Source of the DNA: Pedobacter arcticus A12
GTDB lineage: Bacteria; Bacteroidota; Bacteroidia; Sphingobacteriales; Sphingobacteriaceae
DNA: 64,000 nt
NCBI RefSeq assembly: GCF_000302595.1
Contig: NZ_JH947125.1
Location: 124,001 to 188,000 of the forward strand
Direction: 5' to 3'
The notes beneath the pieces were generated by a model. It saw nothing but the letters and a program-made list of their open reading frames with translations, searched no databases and had not been told where the DNA came from. Each line of letters starts with the position of its first letter. Within the stretch, counting starts at the first letter, position 1. Below, in pieces: positions 43,863 through 64,000 of this stretch. The position numbers and the translations under genes were made by a program.

Positions 43863-44432
43863 ATGATAGATGATATTTTACATGAACAAACCTTACTTGC
43901 TGACCTGAAATTAGGTTGCCAGGATGCCTTTACCCAAATTTACCGTAAATACTGGCAGGTGCTTTACAATGCCGCTTATAAAAGACTTGGAAACAAGGCG
44001 CATAGCCAGGATGCTGTACAGCTTGTTTTTACCTCTTTATGGGATAGGCGTCAAAAGTTAGAAATTCAAAATATTTCTGCGTATTTACATACCGCAGTTA
44101 AATTTCAAGTTTTTAAGCAGGTAGCCAGGGCTCCTAAAACTTCCGAGTTTTTATCGGCCTTTGAAAATATCATTACATCACCTGTAGCAACTGATGATTT
44201 AGTACTTGAAAAAGAGGTGTTAAATCTGGTTAAAATGTGGATCGAGGCTTTGCCTAAGAAGCGAAAAGAAATATTTCTACTCCATTATAATGAAGGTTTA
44301 CCAACAGACCAGATAGCCAATAAACTAAACATTTCCAGAAAAACGGTGCAAAATCAACTCAATACAGCCAATTTGGCCTTGAGATTAAGGTTAACACAAT
44401 TTCTTTCCCTATTAATCCTTTTTGCACAATAA
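43863..44432 (+). CDS. RNA polymerase ECF sigma factor (FecI-like, SusCD-linked)
   Basis: 189 residues from ATG 43863; a TTG directly before it is less likely. Region 2: LKLGCQDAFTQIYRKYWQVL then DAVQLVFTSLWDRRQKLEIQ; region 4: LPKKRKEIFLLHYNEGLPTD with the helix-turn-helix ANKLNISRKTVQNQLNTANL. It is the Bacteroidota type that pairs with FecR anti-sigma factors and with SusC-like receptors bearing an STN domain. It directs transcription of the glycan locus when the receptor reports ligand. A short hydrophobic C-terminal tail (LTQFLSLLILFAQ) is common in this subgroup. 208 bp upstream of fecR. Confidence 0.93.
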   Translation: MIDDILHEQTLLADLKLGCQDAFTQIYRKYWQVLYNAAYKRLGNKAHSQDAVQLVFTSLWDRRQKLEIQNISAYLHTAVKFQVFKQVARAPKTSEFLSAFENIITSPVATDDLVLEKEVLNLVKMWIEALPKKRKEIFLLHYNEGLPTDQIANKLNISRKTVQNQLNTANLALRLRLTQFLSLLILFAQ

Positions 44433-45949: not shown

Positions 45950-48900
45950 ATGTACAAAAAATTTAAAGAAAGTCTCTGCAGGTACTGCGGTGCATTAATG
46001 TTCAAGTTTTTTTTAATTATGAAGTTAATCTTTATGCTTTTATTGGCAAGTTTCATGCATGTGAATGCGACTAGTTTTGCCCAAAAAATATCTATGGACA
46101 AAAAGAATGTTTTGTTAATAGATGTACTGAAAGAAATTAGAAAGCAAAGTGGATATAACATTTTATTCACAGCCAAAGCAATAAAAGACCAGCAAATCTC
46201 AGCAATCAATTTGTCTAATGTCTCCATAGACGAAGCTATGGCTAAATGCTTGAACGGATATAATTTAACCTATAAGGTAGTTGATAAAAATATTGTTATC
46301 TCCGAAAAGAAAATAGAAAATAATAAACCTGTAGCACAAAAGGCAATTTCAATCATAGGAAAAATAACCGATGATAAGGGCGAATCTTTACCAGGAGTAA
46401 GTATTCGTGTAAAAGGTAGCTCTATTGGTGCTATTTCTAACTTTGAAGGAAACTATATGATAACCGTTCCTTCAAAGACTTCAATTTTAATTTTTTCGTA
46501 TTTAGGCTTTGAAACTTTAGAAAAAAGTGTGGGCGACAACACAATTATAAATGTCTCTTTAAAAGAGCAAGCAAGGAGTTTAAGCCAAGTAGTAGTAATA
46601 GGTTATGGGGAAGTTAAAAGAGGTGATTTAACAGGTGCCGTTGGAGAACTTAAACTCCAGGATGTTGATAAAGCACCTGTACTGTCAGTAGACCAAGCTT
46701 TAGCGGGTAGAATTGCCGGAGTTAGTGTAAGTAGTAATGACGGGCAGCCAGGTTCAGAAATGAATATCGTGATTAGGGGAGGAAATTCTTTAACACAAAG
46801 CAATGCGCCTTTATATGTTATAGATGGTTTCCCACAAGAAGACCCTAGTCTTTTAAATATAAACCCCGAAGACATTAAATCTTTAACCGTTTTAAAGGAT
46901 GCATCTGCAACAGCAATATATGGATCTAGAGGTGCAAACGGTGTTATTGTTATAGAAACAAAACAAAGCGAGGGAGACAATAAAACCAATGTTTCTTATT
47001 CCTCCAGTTTTGGAGCTCAACAGGTTGCCAATCGGTTGGAATTAATGGATCCCTATGAGTTTGTAAAATACCAAGCAGAAGCGAACTCTCAGGTTGCAGA
47101 TATTTTTTATCTGGCCAGCAAAGGGAAAACTATTGATGATTACAAAAATGTTAGTGGAGTAAACTGGCAAGATTATCTTTTTAGAAACGGATTTTACCAG
47201 AACCAAACTGCAAGCGTATCTGGAGGAGGAAAAACGCGTTTCCATAGTTCATTTAACTATGCCAACCAGCAAGGGCCGATTATAAAAACCGGATACGACC
47301 GTATTTTAGGCAGGTTGAACTTAAATCATGATTTAAAAAACGCCAAACTATATTTAGGGATAAGCTACGCACAAGATAAAAACTTTGGCGACGTTGCTGG
47401 TTCGCCAGAAAGTGCGACATACAGTAGTTACACTTTGTTTAGAACGTGGGCATACAGGCCAACAATGGGCGGAGATGACAATCTCCTTATTGAGGATTTG
47501 GTTGACCCCGAATCGGCTTTAATAACAACCAATCCGATAGTTGATCTAAATAATATTCAACGAGAAACACGTAAAGAGAGTCTCTATTTGAATGGTTCTG
47601 CAACCTTTAATCTATCTAAAAATTTGGAGTTTAAGGTTAGGGGAGGAGCATCGAAAAGAACGTATAGAGAGTCTGGTTTCTATAATTCATTGACCTCACG
47701 CGGTACATCAGTATTGGTTGGTAACACCAAAGGAGTAAACGGTTTAGTGAATTTTACACAAATGACGAGCTGGTTAAATGAAAACACTTTAACCTATAAA
47801 AAGAAAGTTAGAGATCATTCATTTACAGGTTTAATTGGTTTTACTACGCAACAGTACGATTATAGCAGATTTGGTTTAACAGGAGAGTTGTTGCCAAATG
47901 AAGAACTTGGTTTAAGCGGTCTAGATCAAGGAATTCCCGGATCTAACTCGGCGCTCATTAACCGTAATTTCCTGCTTTCTTATTTAGCAAGGGCTGATTA
48001 TAACTACAAAAGTAAGTATCTGGTAACGCTTACTTTTAGGTCTGATGCCTCTAGTAAATTTGCCAAAGAAAATAGAAGCGCCTATTTCCCTTCTGCTGCC
48101 TTCGCTTGGAAAATTAAGAACGAAAACTTTTTAAACGGGGTTAAAACAATTACCGATGCCAAACTAAGAACAAGCTTTGGTTATACAGGTAATAATAGAA
48201 TCGGAGATTTTTCAAGGTTTTCTCAGATGACGCTTCCATATTCCTCTTACTATTCTTTCGGAAATGCCACGCCGTCTAAAGGTGTTACGTTGAGCACTTT
48301 TGGTAACGAAGATTTGAAATGGGAAACCACCCGCCAGTTTGACCTAGGGCTTGATTTAGCTTTATTGAAAAATAGAGTCCGTTTAACAGTTGATTTTTAT
48401 GATAAAGTAACCAAAGATTTGCTTTTAAGTGCTCCAGTACCTTATACCACCGGTTATTCTTCCATGTATAAGAATATCGGTAGCATTAATAATAGAGGTT
48501 TAGAGTTTAGCTTATCTACAGATAATGTTAGAAGTAAAAGTTTTCAATGGAGTACAGATTTCAACATAAGTTTCAATAAAAACAAAATCCTTTCCTTAAC
48601 AGATGAATCCAATAGGTTGTTAACACCAATAGGTTGGTCTTCCAACTTTAACACAGTTAATCTTTACATGGCAGAAGTTGGCGGACCTTCGTCGCAGTTT
48701 TATGGCTTAACTTGGGATGGAGTGTATGGATATGATGATTTCGAATTGATAGGAAATACCTATAGTCTTAAATTAAATGTACCTACAAACGGTTTGTCTC
48801 GTACGGCAATTCAGCCAGGAGATGTGAAATACAAAGACATTAACGGCGATGGTATTATCAATATCAACGATAATTCAATTATCGGTAGAGGGCTGCCAAT

Positions 48901-49396
48901 ACATTCAGGTGGTTTTAACAACAACTTCAAGTACAAAAGTTTCGGCTTAAATGTCTTCTTCCAATGGTCTTACGGAAACGACATTATGAATGCAAATAGG
49001 ATGTACTTGGAAGGAAATGTGAATAATAGCTTAGGGATGAACCAGCTGGCTACTTATGCAAACAGATGGACACCTACAAATTCGGATAGCGATTTATACC
49101 GCGTTGGTGGCCAAGGGCCAGCAGGCTATTACAGTAACAGAATCCTTGAAGATGGATCCTTTCTTAGGTTAAAAACCGTTAACCTTTCTTACACCTTGCC
49201 CAGATTATTAACTAAACGATTAAAGTTGACCAATTTGGAGGTAAACCTTGCTGCCCAAAATCTTGTTACATGGACAAATTACACCGGTCTGGATCCAGAA
49301 GTTTCTTTACGGAATAGCACATTAACACCAGGGTTCGATTTCTCAGTATATCCAACTGCAAAGACAATAGTTCTTGGTATAAAAACAAATTTTTAA
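45950..49396 (+). CDS. SusC-like TonB-dependent glycan importer with STN domain
   Basis: 1148 residues. Signal sequence about 22-44, STN signalling domain about 48-115 (VLLIDVLKEIRKQSGYNILF), carboxypeptidase-regulatory-like domain about 128-205 (SIIGKITDDKGESLPGVSIR), then plug with VVIGYGEVKRGDLTGAVGEL and the long barrel. The STN domain marks a receptor that also signals to FecR, in agreement with the upstream genes. It imports the oligosaccharides released at the surface, with the SusD protein as lid. It is 4 bp before susD. A 115-bp gap from fecR contains an AATCAGG/CCTGATT hairpin (45863-45891) without a T-run. Confidence 0.96.
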   Translation: MYKKFKESLCRYCGALMFKFFLIMKLIFMLLLASFMHVNATSFAQKISMDKKNVLLIDVLKEIRKQSGYNILFTAKAIKDQQISAINLSNVSIDEAMAKCLNGYNLTYKVVDKNIVISEKKIENNKPVAQKAISIIGKITDDKGESLPGVSIRVKGSSIGAISNFEGNYMITVPSKTSILIFSYLGFETLEKSVGDNTIINVSLKEQARSLSQVVVIGYGEVKRGDLTGAVGELKLQDVDKAPVLSVDQALAGRIAGVSVSSNDGQPGSEMNIVIRGGNSLTQSNAPLYVIDGFPQEDPSLLNINPEDIKSLTVLKDASATAIYGSRGANGVIVIETKQSEGDNKTNVSYSSSFGAQQVANRLELMDPYEFVKYQAEANSQVADIFYLASKGKTIDDYKNVSGVNWQDYLFRNGFYQNQTASVSGGGKTRFHSSFNYANQQGPIIKTGYDRILGRLNLNHDLKNAKLYLGISYAQDKNFGDVAGSPESATYSSYTLFRTWAYRPTMGGDDNLLIEDLVDPESALITTNPIVDLNNIQRETRKESLYLNGSATFNLSKNLEFKVRGGASKRTYRESGFYNSLTSRGTSVLVGNTKGVNGLVNFTQMTSWLNENTLTYKKKVRDHSFTGLIGFTTQQYDYSRFGLTGELLPNEELGLSGLDQGIPGSNSALINRNFLLSYLARADYNYKSKYLVTLTFRSDASSKFAKENRSAYFPSAAFAWKIKNENFLNGVKTITDAKLRTSFGYTGNNRIGDFSRFSQMTLPYSSYYSFGNATPSKGVTLSTFGNEDLKWETTRQFDLGLDLALLKNRVRLTVDFYDKVTKDLLLSAPVPYTTGYSSMYKNIGSINNRGLEFSLSTDNVRSKSFQWSTDFNISFNKNKILSLTDESNRLLTPIGWSSNFNTVNLYMAEVGGPSSQFYGLTWDGVYGYDDFELIGNTYSLKLNVPTNGLSRTAIQPGDVKYKDINGDGIININDNSIIGRGLPIHSGGFNNNFKYKSFGLNVFFQWSYGNDIMNANRMYLEGNVNNSLGMNQLATYANRWTPTNSDSDLYRVGGQGPAGYYSNRILEDGSFLRLKTVNLSYTLPRLLTKRLKLTNLEVNLAAQNLVTWTNYTGLDPEVSLRNSTLTPGFDFSVYPTAKTIVLGIKTNF

Positions 49397-49400
49397 AACT

Positions 49401-50987
49401 ATGAAAAAGCTTATTACACTTATCATACTCGTTAGCATAATTTCAGGTTCATGTAAAAAGTCACTAGAGCTTACGCCCTATGATTTTCTCTCACCTAGCG
49501 AGTATTACAACAACAAAACCCAAATGAATGATGCACTTACGGGCATATATTCTATATTGAAACAGCATCCGCTGTATGCGAACAATATGCTTGGAAGGAT
49601 GGGCTTAGATGCTGATCAAGCGTATAATAGAAATTCTAATGACGCAAATTCTGTTGGTGATTATGCCGTGTCAACAGCGGATGTTAAGGTTCTTACGTTT
49701 TGGAGAACGCTTTATCAAGGTATTGATCGGGCAAATGTGTTATTAGAGAATATCGATAAACCAAAAGACTTAACCGATCAAGAAAGAGCAGTAATTGAAG
49801 GGGAAGCGTTGTTTTTGCGGAGCTACTTTTACTTTTTATTGGTAAGTAACTTTGGGGATGTGCCACTGGTTCTATCTTCAATTAAATCATCCGCTTCTCA
49901 GGCTCATCAAGTAGTGAGAACACCAAAAGTACAAGTTTATGCTAAGATTGTGGAGGATCTGGAAAAAGCAGCTGATCAAGTAAAGCCTATTGATGAAGTA
50001 GGAATAGGCGGAAGAGTGAGTAAATCGGCTGCATGGGCTATGCTGGCAAGGGTCAACCTCTACTGGGCAGGTAAGCCAATCGAGGATCGTACTAAATATC
50101 AGGCCGCCAGAGATTGGGCCGAAAAGGTTATAGATTTACCCGTTCACAAGCTAAATACAAGCTTTAAAGATGTTTTTGTAAAACTAGCAACCGACCCGTA
50201 TGATATAGGCGAAAGTATTTTTGAAGTGGAGTTTTATGGAAATGGGATTGGGATTTATGCCACTTTAGGAGGGTATGTAGGTGTAAATAATGGTATCTAC
50301 AACCAAACAGACATTAACAAAGGGTTTGGCTATTCTTACATTGCCACCACCATTTATACTTATGATGTATATGAGCCAACAGATTTAAGAAGAGATTGGA
50401 CCGTAGCACCATTCTATTACGCTTTTACTAACGGTGTTGCTTCGGAAGTACTTAGGCCTGCCAATCAAATCATGGTTAGAAACTGTGGTAAATTTAGAAG
50501 AGATTCCGAAACTCTTTTACCTAAGAACAGAAGTATAACACCACAAAATTTCCCATTGATTAGACTTTCTGACGTTATGCTCATGTTCGCTGAAGCAGAG
50601 AATGAATTGGGCGCAACTGAAAAGGGTTACAAACAACTTAATAAAGTAAGAAGAAGAGGTTACGGGTTAGATTATAACGTTGACAACCCTACTGTAGATT
50701 ATGCCCCATTCTCGTTATCACACGATAAATTTTTAGAAAAAATTAAGGATGAAAGAACCAGAGAATTAGCTTTTGAGTGTTTAAGAAAAGGTGATTTGGT
50801 ACGTTGGGGTGATTTCTTGACCAATATGAAACAAAGACTTCAGGAAGCAAATAGTCATGTTGAGTTTTACGATTTGCGGTTTGCGAAAGCCATGTTTACA
50901 AACGTAAGTGCGAGAGATGTTGTGTGGCCAATTCCTAGCTATGAGTTGGGCGTAAACTTTTCGTTAACACAAAATCCAGGATGGTAA
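49401..50987 (+). CDS. SusD-like surface glycan-binding lipoprotein
   Basis: 528 residues. Lipobox near residue 18 (VSIISGSCKKSLELTPYDFL), N-terminal SusD-like helical domain with TPR units (ALTGIYSILKQHPLYANNML, GEALFLRSYFYFLLVSNFGD), and the C-terminal RagB/SusD domain (FPLIRLSDVMLMFAEAENEL, ERTRELAFECLRKGDLVRWG). It covers the SusC pore and binds the glycan. Same operon as susC. Confidence 0.95.
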   Translation: MKKLITLIILVSIISGSCKKSLELTPYDFLSPSEYYNNKTQMNDALTGIYSILKQHPLYANNMLGRMGLDADQAYNRNSNDANSVGDYAVSTADVKVLTFWRTLYQGIDRANVLLENIDKPKDLTDQERAVIEGEALFLRSYFYFLLVSNFGDVPLVLSSIKSSASQAHQVVRTPKVQVYAKIVEDLEKAADQVKPIDEVGIGGRVSKSAAWAMLARVNLYWAGKPIEDRTKYQAARDWAEKVIDLPVHKLNTSFKDVFVKLATDPYDIGESIFEVEFYGNGIGIYATLGGYVGVNNGIYNQTDINKGFGYSYIATTIYTYDVYEPTDLRRDWTVAPFYYAFTNGVASEVLRPANQIMVRNCGKFRRDSETLLPKNRSITPQNFPLIRLSDVMLMFAEAENELGATEKGYKQLNKVRRRGYGLDYNVDNPTVDYAPFSLSHDKFLEKIKDERTRELAFECLRKGDLVRWGDFLTNMKQRLQEANSHVEFYDLRFAKAMFTNVSARDVVWPIPSYELGVNFSLTQNPGW

Positions 50988-51004: not shown

Positions 51005-51970
51005 ATGAATAAATTCTTAAAACTACTAATTGCAGTTACCATTGTACTGCAAGCATGTGAAAAAATAGAAAGCGTAAAAACACCAGATTTTAGCGCTGAA
51101 CTTGCAAAGCAAACCTATTTCGTAGGCGATACTGTGGAAATATTATTTAAAGGCGATCCTAACTTTATTACTTTTTACTCTGGCGAGATAGGAAATGATT
51201 ATGGTTTTAAAGAAAGCCGACAGTTAGACATATCATACCTAATGAATTTTGATACCCAAGTTTTAGACGGCTGGCAAAAAGATCAGCTCTCTATTTTGGT
51301 GTCGAGCAATTTTGACGAAGATTATTCAATAGATGGTGCTCATAGAGCAACTTGGACAGATGTGACTTCAAAGTTCAGAATGTTATTGCCACAAGAAAAC
51401 CGAGTATATACCACAAGCGGTTTCGGCGATATAACATCGGCTATCTTTAATAACCTACAGCAAGATTCTGCAAAAGTTTACTTTGCTGTTAAACAACAAG
51501 TCAAAAACCAAACTATACCCGCAACAATAGACCCAACAAAGAAAAATATAGGTAGCTTAAACAGGGTAAGAGGAGTGGCTATACAATCAAAAAGTGCGGT
51601 AAATCAAAGTCTATTGTTTAATCATGGTTCATTCGAATGGAAGCTTTTTTCAACACCTAATAAAGAGGCCAACAGAGCAGAATTACAGCCAACTGTTATT
51701 CAATTAAGGGCAAATGCGGTTGTCGCAAACCTTTCTCAAGAAACCGAAGATTGGGTAATTAGTAAAAAAATGGTATTTGCCAAGTCTTTAGACGCTGGTC
51801 CGGATTGGGGTAAATCGATTAAAAGTTTAAATGATAAAAGATTGGATAGCTATAAATTAAGCTACTCACAACCCGGAGACTACACCATTACGCTTATTGC
51901 CTTTAATAGCAATGTTGAAAGCAGAAGTGAAGTTTTAAAACAGATCAATATTAAAATTCAAGCTAAGTAA
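51005..51970 (+). CDS. Surface lipoprotein, DUF5017-like (SusE/F-position protein)
   Basis: 321 residues. Lipoprotein signal with Cys18 (IVLQACEKIESVKTPDFSAE). The mature part has an immunoglobulin-like beta domain (YFVGDTVEILFKGDPNFITF, YSGEIGNDYGFKESRQL) and a larger beta-rich domain ending in LSYSQPGDYTITLIAFNSNV. This agrees with the DUF5017/PKD-like lipoproteins that follow SusD in PULs and act as glycan-binding accessory proteins. Binding specificity cannot be read from sequence. 17 bp after susD and 5 bp before the first propeller gene. Confidence 0.75.
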   Translation: MNKFLKLLIAVTIVLQACEKIESVKTPDFSAELAKQTYFVGDTVEILFKGDPNFITFYSGEIGNDYGFKESRQLDISYLMNFDTQVLDGWQKDQLSILVSSNFDEDYSIDGAHRATWTDVTSKFRMLLPQENRVYTTSGFGDITSAIFNNLQQDSAKVYFAVKQQVKNQTIPATIDPTKKNIGSLNRVRGVAIQSKSAVNQSLLFNHGSFEWKLFSTPNKEANRAELQPTVIQLRANAVVANLSQETEDWVISKKMVFAKSLDAGPDWGKSIKSLNDKRLDSYKLSYSQPGDYTITLIAFNSNVESRSEVLKQINIKIQAK

Positions 51971-51975
51971 CTATC

Positions 51976-53175
51976 ATGTTAAAAACCTCTTTTATATTAT
52001 TTTTATCGATGACCTGTTTTTCTGTGTTTGCACAACAGGTAAAATATAATGGTGTACCCGGTGTAGTAATCAATTATCAAGATGTAGAAACGCAACAATA
52101 CATTGGTTCTCCTGGTATCTGTATTTTACCAAACGGAGATTATATAGCAACCCATGATTTGTTCGGGAAGGGTTCTACAGAATTTTCTTCGGCAGTTTCA
52201 AAAGTTTTTCTTTCTAAGAATAAAGGAAAGAGTTGGAAACAGATAGCAGTACTAGATGGCCAGTTCTGGTCTAAACCGTTTGTTCATGGGAACAATTTGT
52301 ATATTATGGGTACAGATAAACACCATGGAAATGTGGTGATCAAGAAGTCTACAGATGGAGGCTATACTTGGACAAAGCCGGTAGATGGTAAATCCGGTTT
52401 ATTAATGGAAGGGGAATTTCATTGTGCCCCTATGCCGGTGATTTCTAGCAATGGTTATCTGTGGCGAGCTATGGAAAGAGCTGATGGCGAAATTAAAAAG
52501 TGGGGTTTTAGATATGGCACTTTTATGATGTCCATTAAAGACGATGCAGACTTGCTGAATGCTACCAACTGGAGACATACAAATACACTTCCGTACGACT
52601 CAACTTATCTAAATGGTGATTTTGGAGCTTGGATAGAAGGAAACGCAGTGCTTACAAATGATAACAATATTGTCAATATTTTAAGAGTTCATAATCCTAA
52701 AGACAAAAATAATGAATGGGCAGCTGTTGTAAACATCTCTCCTGACGGGCTAAAATCATCATTCAACAAAGAAAATGGCTTTATTAAGTTCCCCGGAGGA
52801 GGCAAAAAGTTTTCCATAAGGTTTGATGAAAAAACACAACGATACCTAGCCATAGTTAACTATGTACCTAAAGAATTTAGAGGAACGGTGCAGTTAGATA
52901 GGGTTAGAAATACGCAAGCATTTGTTTCATCTAAAGATTTGAAAACTTGGTACGTACATGAAATTTTGTTACAACACCCTGATATCAAAAAGCATGGTTT
53001 TAATTATGTGGATTGGGAGTTTAATGGTGAAAACATCATATACGTTTCTCGTACCGCTTATGATTTTAAAGATAGGAGTGCTAAAAATTACCACGACGCC
53101 AATTTTTTAACCTTTCATAAAATCAAGAATTATAAAAAGTTGTTCAAAAAATCAATTGACGTAATTACACAATAG
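51976..53175 (+). CDS. Sialidase-like beta-propeller protein, copy A
   Basis: 399 residues with a signal peptide (to about residue 20, FSVFAQQ). Asp-box motifs SKNKGKSWKQ near 82 and STDGGYTWTKP near 118 mark a BNR/sialidase-type propeller. Motifs shared with two paralogues here are YIGSPGI at 38, FHCAPMPV near 143, AWIEGN near 216, FPGGGKKFSIRFD near 272 and a C-terminal NIIYVSRTAYD. The FRIP arginine motif of GH33 sialidases is not visible near the N-terminus, so classical sialidase activity is not assured. It could be a glycoside hydrolase or lyase on an acidic or amino sugar. No T9SS sorting domain; probably periplasmic. Confidence 0.8.
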   Translation: MLKTSFILFLSMTCFSVFAQQVKYNGVPGVVINYQDVETQQYIGSPGICILPNGDYIATHDLFGKGSTEFSSAVSKVFLSKNKGKSWKQIAVLDGQFWSKPFVHGNNLYIMGTDKHHGNVVIKKSTDGGYTWTKPVDGKSGLLMEGEFHCAPMPVISSNGYLWRAMERADGEIKKWGFRYGTFMMSIKDDADLLNATNWRHTNTLPYDSTYLNGDFGAWIEGNAVLTNDNNIVNILRVHNPKDKNNEWAAVVNISPDGLKSSFNKENGFIKFPGGGKKFSIRFDEKTQRYLAIVNYVPKEFRGTVQLDRVRNTQAFVSSKDLKTWYVHEILLQHPDIKKHGFNYVDWEFNGENIIYVSRTAYDFKDRSAKNYHDANFLTFHKIKNYKKLFKKSIDVITQ

Positions 53176-53184
53176 CGACTAATC

Positions 53185-55593
53185 ATGCTGAGAAAATTTA
53201 TTCTATTTCTTTTAAGCAACTTTATGTTGGTGCAGTTTGTAAGCTCGCAAACACAACCATGGGTTAGTCAGGTTAATTTTCAATCTCCAACTGCTGGTGC
53301 TATATATTTAGGTAGCCCCAGTTTGGTTAAACTTACTGATGGGTCAATTTTAGCCTCCAATGATTATTTTGGAAGTGGAACAGCATCAGATGAAACTGCA
53401 ATTTTTAAATCAACAGATAATGGACAAACTTGGGTTTTAAAGAAAAAGATTAATGGAGTTTATTGGGGTACATTATTTCTGCATAAAGGAGATGCTTACG
53501 TTTTAGGTACCTCTGCAGGTGTAACCTACCGTAGTATTGTTATCATTAAATCAACTGACGGGGGAACAAATTGGACCAGTCCAGAAAACGGTGTTCTGTT
53601 TGATAAAATAGGAGCAAGTAATCCTACCTATCACTGTGCTCCAACGCCTGTTGCCGTTTATAATGGTCGTTTATATAAAGGTTTCGAAAGATTAGTAAAC
53701 GCTAGTCAGAGTTTTAGAGGTTATTCTGCTTTCGCTATTTCTATAGATGAGAATGAAACCGACCTGTTAAATCCCGCAAACTGGAGAAAAAGTACTGAAG
53801 TTTCATATGATACATCTTCAGATCAGCCAAATTCTGTTTGGAACACTGGCTGGATTGAAGGAAATATTGTAGAAGGTCCAGACGGAAAACTATGGGATGT
53901 AATGAGGGTGAATTCAAACCCTTATGTGGATAAAGGTGCAATGATAGAAATTAAAGATGATGGCAGTACTGCGTCTTTTTCGGCAGCAAACTTTATAAAC
54001 CTGCCGGGTGGGATGAGCAAATTTGCAATTCGCAGAGACCCCGTTTCTAAACTGTACGTTCTATTTACCAATAATAATACTAACCCTGCTTTCCCCGAAC
54101 AACGTAACGTATTATCCATGTACATCTCTTCTGATTTGCGCAAGTGGCATTTTGCAAAAACATTAATGGAGGATAATTTAGGCTTAACTGAGGAGCAATC
54201 TATCGCTAAAACCGGGTTCCAATATCCAGATTTTCAGTTTGATGGAGACGATATTATTTATTTGGTAAGAACAGCCTATGATGGAGCTAATAACTTTCAC
54301 AATTCTAACAGAATAACATTTGGGAGAGTAATCAATTTTAGACAATACCTTGCAGAAGTACAGCCTGTACAAACTATAGGCTCCATTGGTAGGGTAACGC
54401 TTACTTATAATAACCGTCCCGAGATTTATACAACGGTAAGGGCTACCGATGGTAACGTATGGTTGCAACAAAATTTAGGAGCCGGAAAACTTGCCGAATC
54501 ACGTACCGAAACCGACGCTTATGGAGATTTATTTGCTTGGGGCCGGTGGGATGATGGGCATCAATCAAGAGCGAACGAATTACTGTCAAATACTGTATTA
54601 AGTCCCAATAACCCAATAGCACTCAATAAAATGAGTACTAACCCTTTTTATTATTCAACGCCTGCGTCAAATTATTTTTGGTCTGCCGGCTTGCAAACCG
54701 ATAAACTAACGGGTGACTTAAGCCAAGTAAACGCATCAACGGGTTGCGATCCTTGTGCCAAATTATTAGGAGAAAATTGGAGTTTACCACAATCAAGTGA
54801 GTGGGAAAACATCGTCATCAAAGAAGGTATAACTAATTATACAACAGCGTACAGCTCAAATTTGAAAATACCATCAGCGGGTTTAAGAAACGTAAGCAAT
54901 GGTTTAATAGGCAGTGCGGGTACACTTGCAAGGTTTTGGACTAGGGATGCATTTAGTGGCGGGCAAGCATATATCGCAAGTTTTACCAATACAGCAGCAC
55001 TTACTTTGCCGGTAAGTAGAGGCGGGGGGCTATCTGTAAGGTGCATAAGATTACAGAGAACACTGCCAGTAGAATTGGTTGATTTTGGAGCGAAGTCTCG
55101 GGATAATTTTGTTGAGTTATCGTGGTTTGTAGCAAGTCAAAAAAATAATGATTATTACTTACTGTCTAGATCCTCTGGTGATGGTGATTTTTCAGAAATC
55201 GCAAAAGTTAAAAACATCGACAGTAATCAGCAATATTACTATAAAGATTATAAGCCCTTTAGCGGGCAAAATTACTACAAGCTTTCACAGACAGATACTG
55301 ATGGAGCATTCAAAGATTTAAAAACAATAGCTGTATCCGCTGGGATAAAAGACATGAGTGTATATGTCTCCAAAAAGGGCACAATAATAACATTCAGTTT
55401 AAGTCATTCAACCAGTAAAACGGCTCAACTTAAATTTTCAAATATAGATGGAAAATTAGTAAACACGCAAACGGTAAATCTTGATCAAAGCGTAGCTAAT
55501 ATAAATATTGACGCAGCATCATTTAAGGGCGTTTATTTAGCTACAATTTATTTTGATAACGGAGAAGTGGTTAGTAAGAAAATTATACTATAA
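53185..55593 (+). CDS. Sialidase-like propeller fused to FISUMP domain and T9SS sorting domain, copy B
   Basis: 802 residues, signal peptide to about residue 22. Propeller about 25-390 with Asp-boxes STDNGQTWVL and STDGGTNWTSP, YHCAPTPV, TGWIEGN, LPGGMSKFAIR and DIIYLVRTAYD. Next comes a FISUMP domain (about 405-625: RATDGNVWLQQNLGAGKL, STGCDPCAKLLGENWSLPQS, RGGGLSVRCIRL). The end is an FnIII-like module (LPVELVDFGAKSRDNFVELS) and a sorting domain. So the product should be exported by the T9SS and PorU and be surface-bound or released. Propeller and FISUMP occur as separate neighbouring genes at 57676 and 58910, which argues that they act together. Confidence 0.83.
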   Translation: MLRKFILFLLSNFMLVQFVSSQTQPWVSQVNFQSPTAGAIYLGSPSLVKLTDGSILASNDYFGSGTASDETAIFKSTDNGQTWVLKKKINGVYWGTLFLHKGDAYVLGTSAGVTYRSIVIIKSTDGGTNWTSPENGVLFDKIGASNPTYHCAPTPVAVYNGRLYKGFERLVNASQSFRGYSAFAISIDENETDLLNPANWRKSTEVSYDTSSDQPNSVWNTGWIEGNIVEGPDGKLWDVMRVNSNPYVDKGAMIEIKDDGSTASFSAANFINLPGGMSKFAIRRDPVSKLYVLFTNNNTNPAFPEQRNVLSMYISSDLRKWHFAKTLMEDNLGLTEEQSIAKTGFQYPDFQFDGDDIIYLVRTAYDGANNFHNSNRITFGRVINFRQYLAEVQPVQTIGSIGRVTLTYNNRPEIYTTVRATDGNVWLQQNLGAGKLAESRTETDAYGDLFAWGRWDDGHQSRANELLSNTVLSPNNPIALNKMSTNPFYYSTPASNYFWSAGLQTDKLTGDLSQVNASTGCDPCAKLLGENWSLPQSSEWENIVIKEGITNYTTAYSSNLKIPSAGLRNVSNGLIGSAGTLARFWTRDAFSGGQAYIASFTNTAALTLPVSRGGGLSVRCIRLQRTLPVELVDFGAKSRDNFVELSWFVASQKNNDYYLLSRSSGDGDFSEIAKVKNIDSNQQYYYKDYKPFSGQNYYKLSQTDTDGAFKDLKTIAVSAGIKDMSVYVSKKGTIITFSLSHSTSKTAQLKFSNIDGKLVNTQTVNLDQSVANINIDAASFKGVYLATIYFDNGEVVSKKIIL

Positions 55594-55600
55594 AAATTCA

Positions 55601-57667
55601 ATGAGAAAGATCAATTACTTTTTAGGAGTGTTTGTATTGGCGGTGCAATTCAGCTTTGCGCAATCGTCGCAAACACTTAATTTAATGCCGGTACCTAGTA
55701 ACATAACCGTTAACCAGGGTAAATTACGTATTGATAGTAATTTTAATTTAGCCATTACTGGAAACGTAGATGAAAGATTATATAAAGCCACAACTAGATT
55801 TTTGCGTAGGCTAGATGAACAAACTATTTTATGGTTTGTACAAGATCAAATATCTAAGGCAGACAACAGCCCAAAAGCCGTTTTGCAAATCCATGTACAA
55901 AGACCGGGTTTGGTTAAGTTAAAAGAAGACGAATCTTACCAGTTAAATATTGATAAAGACCATATTAAAATTTCTGCAACAACAGACATTGGAGCCATGT
56001 ATGCTTTGGAAACCTTACTACAGCTTCTAGAGGCCGATGAGAATGGTTTTTATTTCCCACAAGTTTCAATAAAAGACAATCCAAGGTTTGCTTGGAGAGG
56101 CTTAATGATTGACGTCGTTAGACATTGGATTCCTTACGAAGTTATTATCAGAAACATTGATGCAATGCTGGGGGTAAAAATGAATGTACTGCATTTGCAC
56201 TTAACAGACGATCAAGGATTTAGAGTTGAAAGCAAGGTTCATCCGTTGTTACACGAGAAAGGTTCAAACGGGAAATACTTAACGCAAGCCCAACTAAAGG
56301 ATATTGTAAAATACGCTGCAGATAGAGGAATTAGAGTTGTGCCCGAGTTTGATATGCCAGGGCATGCGTCTACTTGGTTTCCTGGTTACCCAGAATATGC
56401 AAGTGCACCAGGTCCTTATCAAATTGAAACAAAGTATAGCCATTTTGAGCCCGCACCAACAATGGATCCAACCAATGAAAAATTGTACCCATTTATTGAT
56501 GCCTTTATTGCAGAAATGGCGAGTACTTTTCCGGATGAGTATATCCATATCGGTGGCGATGAAAATAGAGGAGCGCAATGGGATGCAAACCCTAAAATCC
56601 AAGAGTTTAAGAAAACGCATAATTTGACCGATAACATGGCATTGCAAACCTATTTTAATGGCCGTTTGCAGAAAATATTGGCAAAGTATAACAGAAAAAT
56701 GATGGGTTGGGATGAGATTTTGGAACCCGGTATTTCTAAAGACATCATGATTCATTCTTGGAGAGGTAAAAACTCACTCAATGAGGCTGCAAAAAAAGGA
56801 TATCCGGTAATTATTTCTTCTGGTTTTTATGTGGATTTATTACGCACAGCCGAAGATTACTATTTGAATGAACCGTTGGCAGAAAGCGATGACTTAACGC
56901 CGAGTCAACTTGCAAACGTTTATGGTGGAGAATCTGCAATGTGGGCCGAAATTGTTTCTGCCGAAACTATAGATTCTAGAACCTGGCCTTTTACAGCCGC
57001 CATTGCAGAAAGATTATGGTCTCCCCGCGAAGTAAGAGATGTAAAAGATATGTACAGAAGGCTTGATGTAGTAAGCACTAAATTAGAATATCTGGGCTTA
57101 ACCCATAATAAAAATTATGAGGTGATGCTGAAGAGGTTGACCAACGGTGCGGATATTCCCGCTCTCAAAACTTTTGTTGATGCGGTAGAGCCAATGAAAG
57201 AACTTTCTAGGAGAAAACAAGGAATTACTTATTACACCCGTACACCCTTAACTATGGTTGTTGATGCTGCAAGACCAGACAGTAAGGTTGCTAGGGAATT
57301 TTCATGGATGGTAGACGATTTTGTACAGAACCCGAATAAAGAATTAGCAAATAAGATTAAATCGCAGTATAAGATTTGGATTGCTAATCATGCTAAATTA
57401 AAAGAAACTATGAAGGTTGCACCAGCTATCAGAGAAATAGAACCAGTATCTGAAAATCTGGCTAAACTATCGGCTACGGGTGTTAAGTTGGTAGATTATA
57501 TCATGCTTAAATCATCAAATAAATTAACTGCAAAATCTAAAATGACTTTTGATGAACACGATAAAAGAGAAGATGAAATGCGGTTTATGGTAAAACCCAA
57601 AGGGAACGTAGAAATTGTTATGCTTATTAATGCGACTAAAAAACTGTTAGCAAACACTATTGATTAA
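55601..57667 (+). CDS. GH20 beta-N-acetylhexosaminidase
   Basis: 688 residues from ATG 55601, since an in-frame start 48 bp upstream lies inside the previous gene. Signal peptide to about residue 20 (FSFAQSSQ). GH20b domain about 25-140, catalytic barrel about 150-500: WRGLMIDVVRHWIPYEVIIR, LHLHLTDDQGFRVESKVHPL, VPEFDMPGHASTWFPGYPEY and the catalytic Asp-Glu pair in HIGGDENRG near residue 327. A helical C-terminal extension follows. Removes terminal GlcNAc or GalNAc from glycans by substrate-assisted catalysis. It stands between two propeller genes with short gaps, so one operon. Confidence 0.94.
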   Translation: MRKINYFLGVFVLAVQFSFAQSSQTLNLMPVPSNITVNQGKLRIDSNFNLAITGNVDERLYKATTRFLRRLDEQTILWFVQDQISKADNSPKAVLQIHVQRPGLVKLKEDESYQLNIDKDHIKISATTDIGAMYALETLLQLLEADENGFYFPQVSIKDNPRFAWRGLMIDVVRHWIPYEVIIRNIDAMLGVKMNVLHLHLTDDQGFRVESKVHPLLHEKGSNGKYLTQAQLKDIVKYAADRGIRVVPEFDMPGHASTWFPGYPEYASAPGPYQIETKYSHFEPAPTMDPTNEKLYPFIDAFIAEMASTFPDEYIHIGGDENRGAQWDANPKIQEFKKTHNLTDNMALQTYFNGRLQKILAKYNRKMMGWDEILEPGISKDIMIHSWRGKNSLNEAAKKGYPVIISSGFYVDLLRTAEDYYLNEPLAESDDLTPSQLANVYGGESAMWAEIVSAETIDSRTWPFTAAIAERLWSPREVRDVKDMYRRLDVVSTKLEYLGLTHNKNYEVMLKRLTNGADIPALKTFVDAVEPMKELSRRKQGITYYTRTPLTMVVDAARPDSKVAREFSWMVDDFVQNPNKELANKIKSQYKIWIANHAKLKETMKVAPAIREIEPVSENLAKLSATGVKLVDYIMLKSSNKLTAKSKMTFDEHDKREDEMRFMVKPKGNVEIVMLINATKKLLANTID

Positions 57668-57675
57668 TTAGAACG

Positions 57676-58908
57676 ATGAGCAAGAAAATTAAGCATCTAT
57701 TATTTACCCTTCTACTTTGTACTGCTGTACTTAGCGCAACAATTACGTTTGCGCAGGTGGATGCCGAAAAGGTAGAAACAAATTTGTGGAAGAGCCAGGT
57801 TGCATGGACGGACCCAGGAAGCAATACATATTTAGGGAGCCCAAGTTTAGTAAAGCTGACAGATGGTAACTTGCTTGCTTCTCATGATTATTTTGGAAAG
57901 TATGTTAATTCTGATGATACTTTTATTCATCTGTCTAAAGATGATGGGAAAAGTTGGACCCGTTTGGCAGAACTAAAGGGAATGTTCTGGGGTAATCTTT
58001 TTTTGCATAATGGAGCGGTTTATCTTTTAGGCACTTCAGCTGGTGTTGGTGTAAGAAATATTGTGATTATGAAGTCAATGGATGGAGGTAAAACATGGTC
58101 TACACCTACCACGTCAAAAAATGGAATATTATTTTCAGAAGGTGTTAACGGAGGAACTGCAAAGTACCATTGTGCACCCATGCCTATAGTTAATCATAAT
58201 GGGAGAATATACCGGGCCTTTGAGAATCTTACAGAGTTTTTGCCTGGCATGCGTGGCTATAAAGCCTTTGCAATATCTGCTAATGAAAATGCTGATTTGT
58301 TAAATGCGGCAAATTGGACAAAAAGTACCGAAGTAGCCTACGACACTTCTAAAGACCCCGAAGGATCAAGAAATACCACGGGGTGGATAGAAGGCAATAT
58401 GGTGGTAGGTCCAGATGGTAGGTTGTGGGATATCCTTAGGGTAAACTCGACTCCGTTTTTTGATAGAGCAGCCATGGTTGAGATAAAAGATAACGGGAAA
58501 GTAGCTGATTTTGATCCACAGAACTTTATTACACTGCCAGGCGGTATTAGCAAATTTGTGATTAGGAAAGATCCAACACAGGCTATTTATTGGATGTTAT
58601 CTAATACCAATACAGACACAAATTTCCCATCGCAAAGAAGTGTACTTTCATTATATGCATCTAAAGACCTACGCAACTGGTACCACGCCAAAACTTTAAT
58701 GGAAGATGATCAAGGTTTATCTCCAATAGAATCGATTAAGAAAACTGGTTTCCAATATCCCGACTGGATTTTTAACGGTAATGATCTTATCTATTTAAGT
58801 AGAACAGCTTATGCTGGAGCAAGAAACTACCATGATTCAAACAGAATAACCTTTGGAAACATAGCCGATTTTAGAAACTATTTACCCGAAAATTTAAAAA
58901 TAAAATAA
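57676..58908 (+). CDS. Sialidase-like beta-propeller protein, copy C
   Basis: 410 residues with a signal peptide (to about residue 26, TITFAQVDA). Asp-boxes SKDDGKSWTR near 97 and SMDGGKTWSTP near 136. TYLGSPSLVKLTDGNLLASH, YHCAPMPI, TGWIEGN, LPGGISKFVIRKD and LIYLSRTAYAGARNYHDSNR show that it is closer to copy B than to copy A. It contains no FISUMP or sorting domain, but the very next gene is a separate FISUMP lipoprotein with a 1-bp gap, so the pair reproduces the layout of copy B in two genes. Confidence 0.8.
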   Translation: MSKKIKHLLFTLLLCTAVLSATITFAQVDAEKVETNLWKSQVAWTDPGSNTYLGSPSLVKLTDGNLLASHDYFGKYVNSDDTFIHLSKDDGKSWTRLAELKGMFWGNLFLHNGAVYLLGTSAGVGVRNIVIMKSMDGGKTWSTPTTSKNGILFSEGVNGGTAKYHCAPMPIVNHNGRIYRAFENLTEFLPGMRGYKAFAISANENADLLNAANWTKSTEVAYDTSKDPEGSRNTTGWIEGNMVVGPDGRLWDILRVNSTPFFDRAAMVEIKDNGKVADFDPQNFITLPGGISKFVIRKDPTQAIYWMLSNTNTDTNFPSQRSVLSLYASKDLRNWYHAKTLMEDDQGLSPIESIKKTGFQYPDWIFNGNDLIYLSRTAYAGARNYHDSNRITFGNIADFRNYLPENLKIK

Positions 58909-58909: not shown

Positions 58910-59710
58910 ATGAAACATTCCAGTATTTATGTATTAGCTAGTGCTTTATTATTTAACGTAGCATGTAGTACTAAAAAAACAGCTACCAATGCAGTAAGCA
59001 ATATTGAAAGCCTTCCAACAAAAGAAGTGGGTTCTGCTGGTACCGTAGAAGCGGTACTTAACAATGAGAAAGTTACCTATAAAACCGTAAGAGCTGCAGA
59101 TGGTGAAATTTGGTTACAACAAAACTTAGGTTCGTTAAGAGTAGCTGCGAACATTAGTGATAAAAATGCTTATGGCAATTATTTTCAATGGGGAAGAGGA
59201 ATTGATGGGCATGAAAAAGCAGAAGGAGCTGTAGAAGTTGGAGTGGCAAAACCAAATAACCCTCGAGGATTATCAAAAACAGAAAAGAATCCATTTTATG
59301 CATCGGAGAAAGCTACCGGTTTTTGGTGGAAAGGTGGTGACCAATATGATACTTGGGAAGCCAATGAAAATGCAAGAATTAATGAAATAAACGGTTGCGA
59401 CCCATGTAAACAATTACTTGGCCGCCAGTGGAGAATGCCAACGTTACAAGAGTGGAAAAGTGTTTTAGTAGCCGAAAAAGCAACTAGTTTTTTAACAGCT
59501 TACTCTTCAAACTTAAAACTAGTTCCTGCCGGTATGAAAAACGCCAATAATGGTAAAGTAGGTAGCCAAACTAGCATGTTAAGGTATTGGGCCGGCACAG
59601 CTGCTGCATCTGGTAACGCTTTTTTAGTTTATTTAAGTAACAAAGGCTTAGAATACCCGGCCTTTAGCAGAGCTGGCGGATTGCCAGTAAGATGCATCAG
59701 GGCTAAGTAA
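58910..59710 (+). CDS. FISUMP-domain lipoprotein
   Basis: 266 residues. Lipobox with Cys19 (LLFNVACSTKKTATN). FISUMP (Fibrobacter succinogenes major paralogous) domain through the rest: VRAADGEIWLQQNLGSLRVA near 62, NGCDPCKQLLGRQWRMPTLQ near 163, SNLKLVPAGMKNANNGKVGS and AGGLPVRCIRAK at the end. The domain has a C-type-lectin/SUMF-like look; glycan or surface binding is plausible, but no activity is known to me. It abuts copy C by 1 bp and matches the FISUMP part of copy B in all these motifs. Confidence 0.85.
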   Translation: MKHSSIYVLASALLFNVACSTKKTATNAVSNIESLPTKEVGSAGTVEAVLNNEKVTYKTVRAADGEIWLQQNLGSLRVAANISDKNAYGNYFQWGRGIDGHEKAEGAVEVGVAKPNNPRGLSKTEKNPFYASEKATGFWWKGGDQYDTWEANENARINEINGCDPCKQLLGRQWRMPTLQEWKSVLVAEKATSFLTAYSSNLKLVPAGMKNANNGKVGSQTSMLRYWAGTAAASGNAFLVYLSNKGLEYPAFSRAGGLPVRCIRAK

Positions 59711-59802: not shown

Positions 59803-61200
59803 ATGAAGAAACTATTAACCATATTAATTCTACTGATATCTGGGCATTCTTTTGCTCAAATCAATCTTCCTTCCTTCTTTTCAGATAACATGATTTTGCA
59901 GCGAAATGCAGAGGTGAGTTTCTGGGGCTGGGGGAATAAAGGAGCTGAGGTGACAGTTACCCCGTCGTGGTCTAACGAAATGATTAAAGTACCAACAACT
60001 GGGCATGCTCGTTTTGATGTAAAGTTGAAAACACCAGAGGCAGGAGGTCCATATGAAATAACTGTAACAACAGGAATTTACAAAAAAGTAATCAAAAATA
60101 TTTTAATTGGTGAGGTTTGGTTGTGTTCTGGTCAGTCCAATATGCAATGGAATTCTTATAACCGATTAAAAGAAATGTTAGATGAATTACCAAACGCCAC
60201 TAACCCTAAAATTAGGCTATTAAATGTGAGCAACATCGCTTCTCTAACTTCACAAGATAATACTTTTGATTCTTGGCAAGAGTCTAATCCTGAAACTGTA
60301 GCAGGTTTTAGCGCCATCGGTTATTTTATAGCAAAGCACATGAGCGAAGAGTTAAATGTACCAGTAGGGATAATTAATTCGAGTTGGGGCGGTACAGCTG
60401 CAGAGTTTTGGACACCAGCTAGGGTGATTGATGCAGATGAGGAATTAGCAGCGAATGCAAAAAAGCAAAGACCCGCTCCTTCAAAGCCATATGAAGCAGG
60501 CTCGCTTTGGAATTCTATGATCAACCCATTTGTGGGCTACAATATTTCTGGCGTGTTTTGGTATCAAGGCGAATCAAACATCGTATCGTACTCTGGTTAT
60601 AATAAACTTTTTTCTGCCATGATTAACAGTTGGAGAACTGCGTGGAAAAGTGATTTCCCATTTTATTATGTACAAATAGCACCTTATGACTACAAATCAA
60701 AACCTGAAGAGCAAAGAGGGGCACTGCTAAGAGAACAGCAAGTCCAAACTTTAAGTCTTCCAAAAACTGGGATGGCAGTAGTTACTGATTTGGTTCCAGA
60801 CGTGGCAAACATCCATCCTACAAGAAAAGTTGAGGTAGCAAAAAGACTCGCCGATTTAGCATTGGTAGAAGTTTACGGAAAAAAGAAAATCGATTATAAA
60901 TCACCAGTGTACAAAAGGCACAAAATTGAAGGTGATAAAATTATCATTGAATTTAATGACCTAAAAGGGAGGCTAAAAGTAGATGGTGCATTTATCACTG
61001 ATTTATTAATTGCGGATGATTCAAAAAAGTTTATTCCAGCAGATTACAAAATTGTAAACAATCAACTAATTGTATTTAGCAAATCGATAAAGAAACCTGT
61101 TGCAGTTAGGTTTGGTTTCTCTGATGTAAGCAGACCTAATTTGTTTAACAGCAATGGTTTGCCAGTTTCTCCATTTAGAACGGATAATTGGAATCTATAG
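59803..61200 (+). CDS. Sialate O-acetylesterase (SGNH family)
   Basis: 465 residues with a signal peptide (to about 18, SGHSFAQINLPSFF). SGNH blocks: WLCSGQSNMQWNSY near residue 108 (catalytic Ser), NSSWGGTAAEFWTPARV near 193, FWYQGESNIVSYSG near 252 and the Asp-x-x-His block DLVPDVANIHPTRKVEVAKR near 330. A C-terminal beta domain follows. It removes O-acetyl groups from sialic acids or from other acetylated sugars. 92 bp after the FISUMP gene and with a terminator at 61209. Confidence 0.9.
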   Translation: MKKLLTILILLISGHSFAQINLPSFFSDNMILQRNAEVSFWGWGNKGAEVTVTPSWSNEMIKVPTTGHARFDVKLKTPEAGGPYEITVTTGIYKKVIKNILIGEVWLCSGQSNMQWNSYNRLKEMLDELPNATNPKIRLLNVSNIASLTSQDNTFDSWQESNPETVAGFSAIGYFIAKHMSEELNVPVGIINSSWGGTAAEFWTPARVIDADEELAANAKKQRPAPSKPYEAGSLWNSMINPFVGYNISGVFWYQGESNIVSYSGYNKLFSAMINSWRTAWKSDFPFYYVQIAPYDYKSKPEEQRGALLREQQVQTLSLPKTGMAVVTDLVPDVANIHPTRKVEVAKRLADLALVEVYGKKKIDYKSPVYKRHKIEGDKIIIEFNDLKGRLKVDGAFITDLLIADDSKKFIPADYKIVNNQLIVFSKSIKKPVAVRFGFSDVSRPNLFNSNGLPVSPFRTDNWNL

Positions 61201-62829: not shown

Positions 62830-64000
62830 ATGAGAGATTTTAAACTAATTAACGGAAAAATAAATGTGCTATATGCCATAATACTGTGCGTGATTCCGTG
62901 TTTAAACAACTCTTGCAATGCACAAAACATGAGCTACAAAGAAAGAAAGCTAACAAGCGAGGCTAAAGGACATTTACTCAACACCACTCAATGTTTTTCG
63001 CCAGATGGGGATTGGTTAGTTTATGATACTCGCAATGACGATAGCAAAATAGGGAGTACCAAAACCATCGAAATGATAAATATCAACACAGGTATTATCA
63101 AAGAACTTTACCACACTAACAACCAAACCGAATACGGCCCAGGCGTTGGTGCGGCAACATTTTCGCCTACCGAAAACAAAGTGATTTTTATTCATGGAAT
63201 AAGAAACTCCAACAAAACCAACCCCTACGATTTTACCAGAAGAACTGGTGTTGCCATAGCTGTAAGCAAGCCACTACAACCCATTTTTATGGATGCCAGA
63301 GATGTTAATCCTCCGTTTACGATTGGAGCCTTAAGAGGAGGGACTCATGCACACACCTGGAGTGGAGACGGACAAGCGATAAGTTATACTTATAATGACG
63401 ATGTTATTGCGAAAAGCGGTAAAATCAAAGATTTAAGAACCGTAGGTATTATGTTTCCTGGAAAGGTTAATGTAGCAGATGATGGTTCTTTAGAAAATAA
63501 CAGCGGCGAAATGTTTTCCGTTATTATTGCAAACGTAACAGAAAACCCAAATCCTAATAGCGACGAAGTAGATAAAGCATTTGACGAATGTTGGATTGGG
63601 AATGATGGTTACCTAAAAAATGATGGTAATCGTCAGCACCGGGCAATAGCTTTTCAAGGCAATGTTAGAAATGAATTAGGGGAAACTGTTACAGATATAT
63701 TTGTGGTAGATCTTCCTGCGGATTTGAATACATTGAAAGCAGAAACTACGCAAGGACTAGCTTCTGCTAGACTTGCAGTGCCAGTAAGCTTGGCGCAGCG
63801 GAGAATAACAAAACTTAAAGAAGGAGTAAAAGGTCCGCGTCATTGGCTTCGCACCAGTGCTGATGGTCGTATTATTGCCTTTCTCTCCAAAGACAAAGCA
63901 GGTTATATAAATGCATTCGGTGTTTCTCCAAACGGAGGTGCTGTAAAACAGCTGAGCTTTCATAAGTTTGATATCGAAAGCGGCTTTAACTTTAGCCCAG
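62830..64000 (+). CDS. DUF3748 (YidR-like) propeller protein, 3' end beyond the window
   Basis: At least 390 residues open to the right edge. Begins MRDFKLINGKINVLYAIILC and has Cys31 in LNNSCNAQNM, which may be a lipobox. Then KLTSEAKGHLLNTTQCFSPD with GDWLVYDTRNDDSKIGST, GPGVGAATFSPTENKVIFIH, GALRGGTHAHTWSGDGQAIS and GPRHWLRTSADGRIIAFLSK. These WD40-like/TolB-type blades match the DUF3748 family of E. coli YidR, of unknown function. Position next to sialidase-like and esterase genes suggests a part in the same glycan pathway. The C-terminus is outside the window. Confidence 0.8.
   Translation, partial: MRDFKLINGKINVLYAIILCVIPCLNNSCNAQNMSYKERKLTSEAKGHLLNTTQCFSPDGDWLVYDTRNDDSKIGSTKTIEMININTGIIKELYHTNNQTEYGPGVGAATFSPTENKVIFIHGIRNSNKTNPYDFTRRTGVAIAVSKPLQPIFMDARDVNPPFTIGALRGGTHAHTWSGDGQAISYTYNDDVIAKSGKIKDLRTVGIMFPGKVNVADDGSLENNSGEMFSVIIANVTENPNPNSDEVDKAFDECWIGNDGYLKNDGNRQHRAIAFQGNVRNELGETVTDIFVVDLPADLNTLKAETTQGLASARLAVPVSLAQRRITKLKEGVKGPRHWLRTSADGRIIAFLSKDKAGYINAFGVSPNGGAVKQLSFHKFDIESGFNFSP

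Follow-up and report, generated by a model that had tools for sequence, protein, structure and literature searches.

Three paralogous propeller genes stand in one operon of Pedobacter arcticus A12, and the locus raises the question of which sugar, if any, their products release. The window, that is the whole stretch of DNA analysed and the reference for its coordinates, covers 64,000 nt of contig NZ_JH947125.1 (positions 124,001-188,000). The propellers form a coherent family, which is a divergent clade of the sialidase superfamily rather than a group outside it. Together with a cassette of catabolic genes they are tentatively read, at somewhat less than an even chance, as a retaining ketosidase, one that frees a 3-deoxy-2-ulosonic acid different from N-acetylneuraminic acid (Neu5Ac), with 3-deoxy-D-manno-oct-2-ulosonic acid (Kdo) as the best fit, and as the catabolic route for that acid. 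The three genes are as follows.

51976..53175, + strand: propeller 1, 399 amino acids (aa), signal peptide (by eye) and a single sialidase-fold propeller; a separate sub-branch of the family
53185..55593, + strand: propeller 2, 802 aa, propeller followed by a FISUMP-like domain (~residues 391-624) and a C-terminal sorting tail of the type IX secretion system (T9SS)
57676..58908, + strand: propeller 3, 410 aa, BNR_2 E 3.9e-10; structure predicted; reference for residue numbering

All three reading frames are open and run in the same orientation. The paralogy is not a matter of chance, since 53185 is 55% and 51976 is 37% identical to 57676. The shared motifs listed by the first-pass annotation of this DNA are in place with small variants: FPGG replaces LPGG in 51976 and LIY replaces IIY in 57676. 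Pfam gave only BNR_2 for the propellers and no family-specific model; the match is above the cut-off in two of the three window proteins (E 1.7e-8 for 53185) and below it in 51976 (E 0.006). NCBIfam holds no model specific to the propeller part of the window proteins.

The fold of 57676 was predicted with AlphaFold2 from 14 aligned sequences (pLDDT 89.8, pTM 0.90), and on this model the protein is a six-bladed propeller of the sialidase superfamily. Foldseek placed the GH93 arabinanase 3a71 first (E 1.9e-13) and a Porphyromonas gingivalis sialidase second (E 1.5e-12). In a structural alignment (VIA) the 50 matches listed were all sialidases or constructs of them, with Z 30.1-32.5 over 304-329 residues, a root-mean-square deviation of 2.8-3.9 (6.0 in a single match) and 14-19% identity. 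When the PDB was searched by sequence, using 51976 or the family profile as query, the best matches were short Asp-box stretches. The resemblance to the GH93 exo-arabinanases (3a71, 2w5n; TM score 0.57-0.62) is one of fold, and the GH93 substrate is neutral.

Residue conservation was read from 53 non-redundant members, namely the three window genes and 50 relatives, left from 97 tblastn hits after removal of 10 that were shorter than 280 aa or held stops and of 34 duplicates judged by residues 41-200. The GH33 profile was built from the host's own GH33 (L082:9315-10868; loci, contigs and genomes are cited here by L, C and G numbers), which matches solved GH33 at E 2.3e-118, and 12 relatives. 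As an excerpt of PMC4747158 describes them, sialidases use a Glu-Tyr relay, an Asp acid and a trio of arginines. Aligned by hhalign, the propeller family and the GH33 profile matched with a probability of 96.4 and E 1.1e-9, and Glu374, Arg390 and Arg454 of GH33 fell on E239, R255 and R321 of 57676. These are the positions of the catalytic Glu and of arginines 2 and 3, and all three residues are present in 53/53 members. The Glu-Arg2 spacing is 16 in both GH33 and the propellers, and the Arg2-Arg3 spacing is 64 in the host GH33 against 66 in 57676. The first arginine, Arg186 of the FRIP motif, falls on G54; no member has Arg there (0/53), the residues being Gly (36), Ala (10), Cys (4), Gln (1), Thr (1) and Ser (1). 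H165, Y361 and R376 are likewise invariant (53/53), K293 is found in 52/53 and D71 in 51/53. The acid Asp211 of GH33 (DLPGN) lies in a four-residue gap of the hhalign alignment, and between positions 71 and 87 no Asp reaches 95% conservation among the 53 members; the general acid of GH33 appears to have no counterpart in the propellers.

The nucleophile Tyr has a probable equivalent in Y361. By our reading of the 57676 model, the order of strands after arginine 3 is that of GH33, with Y361 on the strand that would match that of the GH33 Tyr and two further strands following it; the structural alignments reach the last residues of the model, stopping at 378-385 of 385. The GH33 profile has an invariant Glu 16 residues past its Tyr, and the propellers have the invariant Arg376 15 residues past Y361. 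In GH33 this Glu is the partner that holds arginine 1. We suggest that the Arg-Glu pair may have been swapped for a Gly-Arg pair, in which R376 would rebuild the triad.

Compared with GH33 sialidases (NanA of Streptococcus pneumoniae, 2vvz; Micromonospora viridifaciens, 1eur; P. gingivalis, 8gn6/8t24), the propellers share the six-bladed fold, Glu, arginines 2 and 3 and, probably, the Tyr, and differ in a FRIP position that is mostly Gly, Ala or Cys, in the gapped acid Asp and in an identity of 14-19%; their conserved H165, K293 and R376 were not matched to GH33 catalytic residues in this comparison. The first-pass annotation had reported the absence of a FRIP-like motif and had named conserved His, Glu and Arg as candidate active-site residues, and the absence as well as the conservation holds, the latter for H165, E239, R255, R321 and R376. 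Its separation of the genes from GH33 was too strong, and the idea of a propeller unrelated to GH33 was set aside, as the fold and the Glu and arginines 2 and 3 that align to invariant residues weigh against it. Of the arginine triad and Tyr/Glu pair that it had proposed to seek in a structure, the sequence alignments give 57676 the Glu, arginines 2 and 3 and a probable Tyr, without arginine 1.

Within the order the family was found in 32/400 genomes (21-member profile, E 1e-15), and within the phylum in 7/296 (single-member query, E 1e-10), the host being included in both; copy numbers per genome from these searches of genome samples are lower bounds, since no more than five candidates per genome were scored in the order and six in the phylum. 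Relatives also occur in metagenome-assembled genomes of Verrucomicrobiota and Bacillota and in contigs of a viral collection. The host carries seven copies, three in the window and four on contig C4. In a tree of the 53 members 53185 groups with 57676, 51976 stands elsewhere and the four C4 copies fall in a third clade of 11. No description of the propeller family or its operon was found in the titles and abstract openings of the open-licence literature. The four C4 paralogues lie at 170-245 kb (L017, L018, L019, L081), where they share a second glycan locus with SusCD and with DUF5017-like, GH20-like and GH2-like genes (by eye); next to it, in L080, are lactate (Lut-like) genes and what is probably a set for the oxidation of L-fucose (by eye). 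A protein of Pedosphaera (L009:9101-11668) has a second BNR-type propeller fused to a family member, next to sulfatase-like, hydroxyproline-epimerase-like and D-amino-acid-oxidase-like genes labelled by eye; a link to hydroxyproline drawn from the latter two was set aside, the locus being single and the labels by eye.

The substrate is approached through the genes that accompany the propellers. Two of these lie upstream in the window.

40918..42474, + strand: SSF sodium symporter, PF00474 E 1.7e-44; nearest solved structure SiaT 5nv9, E 3e-72
42528..43457, + strand: divergent aldolase of the DHDPS/NAL superfamily, PF00701 E 1.3e-32

In a phmmer alignment to 5nv9 the residues by which SiaT contacts the carboxylate, S60, T63 and R135, are conserved in the symporter, and T58 and Q82 are lost, the glycerol-tail contact Q82 being Ile; the contact residues are those given in an excerpt of PMC5931594. 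The aldolase is 19% identical to the canonical NanA of the host, and its nearest solved relative is DapA 4icn (E 1.3e-18). It fails the NanA equivalog cut-offs (52.8 vs 281 bits; 39.5 vs 382) as well as the DapA cut-offs. The NAL Glu contacting O8/O9 (E195 in LaNAL, as given in an excerpt of PMC4016182) looks lost in it, being Ala or Met by alignment, an observation of little weight. The remaining two cassette genes were scanned in their L075 copies. The kinase (L075:12745-14382), scanned in place of the host's L081 copy, passes the ribulokinase model PRK04123 (652 vs 428 bits) and narrowly misses TIGR01234 (553.6 vs 583.25). The isomerase is just below the Fucose_iso_C cut-off (29 vs 29.3 bits) and has no solved relative at E 0.01. 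The system resembles SiaT/NanA in the carboxylate contacts of an SSF symporter and in a DHDPS/NAL-superfamily aldolase; it differs in that the window symporter is without the SiaT glycerol-tail and anomeric contacts and in that the propeller operons add an isomerase and a ribulokinase.

These genes are linked to the propellers across genomes. With the propeller, aldolase and isomerase counts of the 400-genome order sample taken as the same draw, the aldolase is present in 30/32 propeller genomes and in 121/368 others (Fisher p 6.5e-12), and the isomerase in 29/32 and 84/368 (p 1.6e-14), one of the 29 (G331) having fragments only. In 21/32 propeller genomes a propeller has one or the other no more than 15 kb away; the aldolase-propeller distances are upper bounds. 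As a control, 22 GH33 genomes from a draw of 101 were used, identified by matches at E 1e-40 to one protein, some of them partial, and including three propeller genomes (G000, G366, G384): 13/22 have the aldolase and 11/22 the isomerase, and in none of the 22 does either gene lie 15 kb or less from the GH33 match. Gene clustering over 31 loci placed the symporter in 10 and the aldolase in 10. In 13 propeller loci of related genomes (20 stretches) the aldolase and DUF3748 were each found in 10; when the adjoining stretch is counted along with the locus itself, ribulokinase accompanies 10 and isomerase 8; L060-L065, L067-L069, L071 and L077-L079 stand outside this reading and were covered by the clustering, by eye and by the following search for relatives. 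Among 39 propeller stretches, whose genomes are partly repeated, relatives at E 1e-15 of the symporter were found in 14, of the aldolase in 13, of the kinase in 10 and of the isomerase in 4, many stretches ending before the isomerase. In near relatives the propeller stands in compact operons with these genes, and in L097 (G538), a stretch that starts at a contig end, isomerase, ribulokinase, symporter, aldolase, propeller and DUF3748 stand six in a row with no intervening open reading frame of at least 150 aa. The cassette of the host is split, with the symporter and aldolase upstream of the window propellers and the isomerase 9.3 kb from a C4 propeller.

Fold, residue conservation and gene linkage are the firm ground; the catalysis and the substrate, what Arg376 does and how the steps of the pathway follow one another are proposed from there. 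The exported propellers would hydrolyse a ketosidic bond with retention, Tyr361 being the nucleophile activated by Glu239, and Arg255 and Arg321 would hold the substrate carboxylate. The missing arginine 1 would be replaced by the invariant Arg376 from the strand beside Tyr361, near the place of the invariant Glu of GH33. The freed 3-deoxy-2-ulosonic acid would enter through the SiaT-like symporter, and the DHDPS-type aldolase would split it into pyruvate and an aldose, which would pass through the fucose-isomerase-like isomerase and the ribulokinase into the pentose phosphate pathway. Because NCBIfam classes a cassette kinase as a ribulokinase, the isomerase should yield a pentulose; for a DHDPS-fold aldolase to give an aldopentose besides pyruvate, its substrate has to be a C8 3-deoxy-2-ulosonate, of which Kdo is the common one. 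With Kdo as substrate the products would be pyruvate and D-arabinose. The proposed reaction is like that of the Kdo aldolase EC 4.1.2.23 (Ghalambor and Heath 1966, cited in PMC4412817), the comparison being one of reaction and not of sequence; a passage of PMC4412817 gives the products from Kdo as D-arabinose and pyruvate. Conversely, NAL enzymes synthesise Kdo from D-arabinose and pyruvate according to an excerpt of PMC4016182. EC 4.1.2.23 appears in a table of the 2007 survey of orphan activities, where it is rated 'difficult' (PMC1940265, in the table). The product is probably some sugar acid imported by the SiaT-like symporter, and Kdo is the best single guess at the substrate, held at about one in three. 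That all parts apply at once (a new glycoside hydrolase family with a triad rebuilt by R376 in place of the FRIP Arg, Kdo-type release into a dedicated operon, the aldolase as the gene of EC 4.1.2.23, and D-arabinose use through the isomerase and ribulokinase) is unlikely.

Several points weigh against the release and catabolism of a Kdo-like acid. Of three MAFFT modes one pairs Y361 with the GH33 Tyr, while the other two and hhalign do not, and the reach of Arg376 into the pocket is putative. The aldolase has CLSSE instead of the usual GSTGE motif, which leaves its chemistry less certain. The Fisher tests ignore shared ancestry, and in 11/32 propeller genomes neither the aldolase nor the isomerase lies within 15 kb of a propeller. 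The host isomerase and kinase are off the window contig; they stand on C4 at 8-9 kb from a propeller, the kinase between it and the isomerase. In the stretches covered of L009-L016 (Verrucomicrobiota and Bacillota) none of the four cassette genes (symporter, aldolase, kinase, isomerase) had a relative at E 1e-15, and one of these loci, L011, has a relative of the host AGE epimerase (L011:15553-16746, 45% over 377 aa to the L082 copy) that hints at sialic acid there. The same locus also has three sulfatase-like genes and a SASA-like esterase. GH20 in the window operon and the sulfatase-like and GH29-like genes downstream do not suggest Kdo. The cassette is independent of the propeller: the aldolase occurs in the 121 genomes without a propeller match, and 19/20 of the cassette loci read in related genomes (L151-L170) come from such genomes. 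Because it is so common there, the cassette may serve another sugar. The propeller-free cassette loci scanned have GH2, GH78, GH95, GH115, GH31 or DUF3826 nearby; a Kdo role would require another Kdo-releasing enzyme in them, and none was found. The cassette loci also include a 550-aa family without a Pfam match (L155:18292-19950).

These surroundings favour the alternative that survives best, itself doubtful, namely that the cassette handles a different sugar from plant or microbial polymers, acidic (such as a uronic acid) or 6-deoxy, by isomerase, kinase and aldolase in turn, and that the bond cut by the propeller is uronosyl or of another kind. Transporter, isomerase, FGGY kinase and aldolase stand together both here and in the fucose operon of Escherichia coli (fucP-fucI-fucK-fucA), whose transporter family, kinase type and aldolase superfamily differ from those of the cassette, and an aldolase without GSTGE would fit such a sugar. 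However, the 5-phosphate product of a ribulokinase, as which a cassette kinase is classed by NCBIfam, requires no aldolase, DHDPS-fold enzymes use pyruvate-type donors, and the symporter retains the SiaT carboxylate contacts.

Less probable still are exo-sialidases of unusual sequence that cut Neu5Ac, perhaps O-acetylated, from host-like or microbial glycans with the assistance of the SASA esterase and GH20. The sialidase fold with its kept Glu and arginines 2 and 3, the presence of SASA and GH20 in the operon, the SiaT-like symporter, the NAL-superfamily aldolase and the AGE relative of L011 are what such enzymes would lead one to expect. The lack of arginine 1 in all 53 members and the gapped acid Asp stand against them, as does an aldolase well below the NanA cut-off (52.8 vs 281 bits). 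Moreover, the 39 propeller stretches hold no relative of the host's canonical NanA (0) or GH33 (0) at E 1e-15 and a single AGE relative (1/39, L011), NanE and NanK not having been searched for. The host also has a sialic acid locus apart from the window, at L082:3441-14276, and the idea that the window is that locus was set aside for this reason.

Contig C4, ~248-259 kb (L082): GH33, NanA lyase, MFS transporter, and, labelled by eye like the transporter, a NanM-like kelch protein, an AGE-like epimerase and GH20-like and SASA-like genes

The last account, of non-catalytic glycan-binding helpers of SusCD with a retained sialidase pocket, would suit the missing acid/base Asp and first arginine and the T9SS tail and FISUMP-like domain of one propeller, but Glu, Tyr, three Arg and His are kept in 53/53 members, Bacillota and viral-collection relatives included, and the L097 propeller lies in an operon with no SusCD within the 14-kb stretch; this account is quite improbable.

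The other genes of the window operon and its surroundings are listed below.

43860..44432, + strand: extracytoplasmic function (ECF)-type sigma factor (clustering with similar genes, label by eye)
44641..45834, + strand: FecR-type anti-sigma factor (clustering with similar genes, label by eye)
45950..49396, + strand: SusC-like TonB-dependent transporter (gene clustering, label by eye)
49401..50987, + strand: SusD-like lipoprotein (gene clustering, label by eye)
51005..51970, + strand: DUF5017 lipoprotein, likely a surface glycan-binding partner (PF16409 E 2.4e-34)
55601..57667, + strand: GH20 beta-N-acetylhexosaminidase (PF00728 E 8.8e-88, scanned from 55595)
58910..59710, + strand: stand-alone FISUMP-like lipoprotein directly behind propeller 3, resembling the tail of 53185
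59803..61200, + strand: SASA-family acetylesterase (PF03629 E 5.4e-17)
62830..63999, + strand: DUF3748-type propeller, continuing beyond the window end; clusters with L075:8590-9924; recurrent cassette partner

SusC, SusD, the DUF5017 lipoprotein, the propellers and GH20 belong to a + strand run (45950-59710) with intergenic gaps of 1-17 bases, and the acetylesterase starts 92 bases after it. The operon with GH20, SusCD and an O-acetylesterase described in the first-pass annotation is confirmed with that spacing; its view that three copies do the main cutting of the glycan is not borne out, GH20 and the esterase being in the operon as well. DUF5017 homologues stand ahead of propellers in L018 and L079 too (gene clustering and order). 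The T9SS tail of 53185 scores 26.9 bits with TIGR04183 (cut-off 23), and its FISUMP-like part is 41% identical over 235 aa to 58910, which matches TIGR02145 (E 7.4e-5) and PF09603 (E 1.9e-4) below their cut-offs. By sequence, 57676 and 58910 look like a two-gene counterpart of the propeller-FISUMP fusion of 53185; the fused form also occurs in a Pedobacter protein of L008. The cluster-mate of the last gene, L075:8590-9924, matches DUF3748 (PF12566, E 8.2e-27), and by analogy with NanM for Neu5Ac the DUF3748 propeller may, as a guess, act on the same sugar in the periplasm as a mutarotase or lactonase. Upstream of the symporter, 37313-40165 encodes a GlcD/YdiJ-like FAD and Fe-S oxidase below the listed equivalog cut-offs. 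Just past the window (C1:187001-207000, L084) there are several sulfatase-like and GH29-, GH27-, GH2- and GH20-like genes (by eye), and the glycan locus seems to extend there.

Arginine 1 is a textbook feature of sialidases, and the propeller family is strict at other catalytic positions yet never has it. The family shows another way of holding, or not holding, the carboxylate in proteins that would otherwise pass as plain sialidases. Among the new facts the linked operon says most, and it offers a concrete candidate pathway, open to test, for a sugar acid about whose catabolic genes little is known. If confirmed, it would be an undescribed route for the scavenging of acidic sugars, probably not of ordinary sialic acid.

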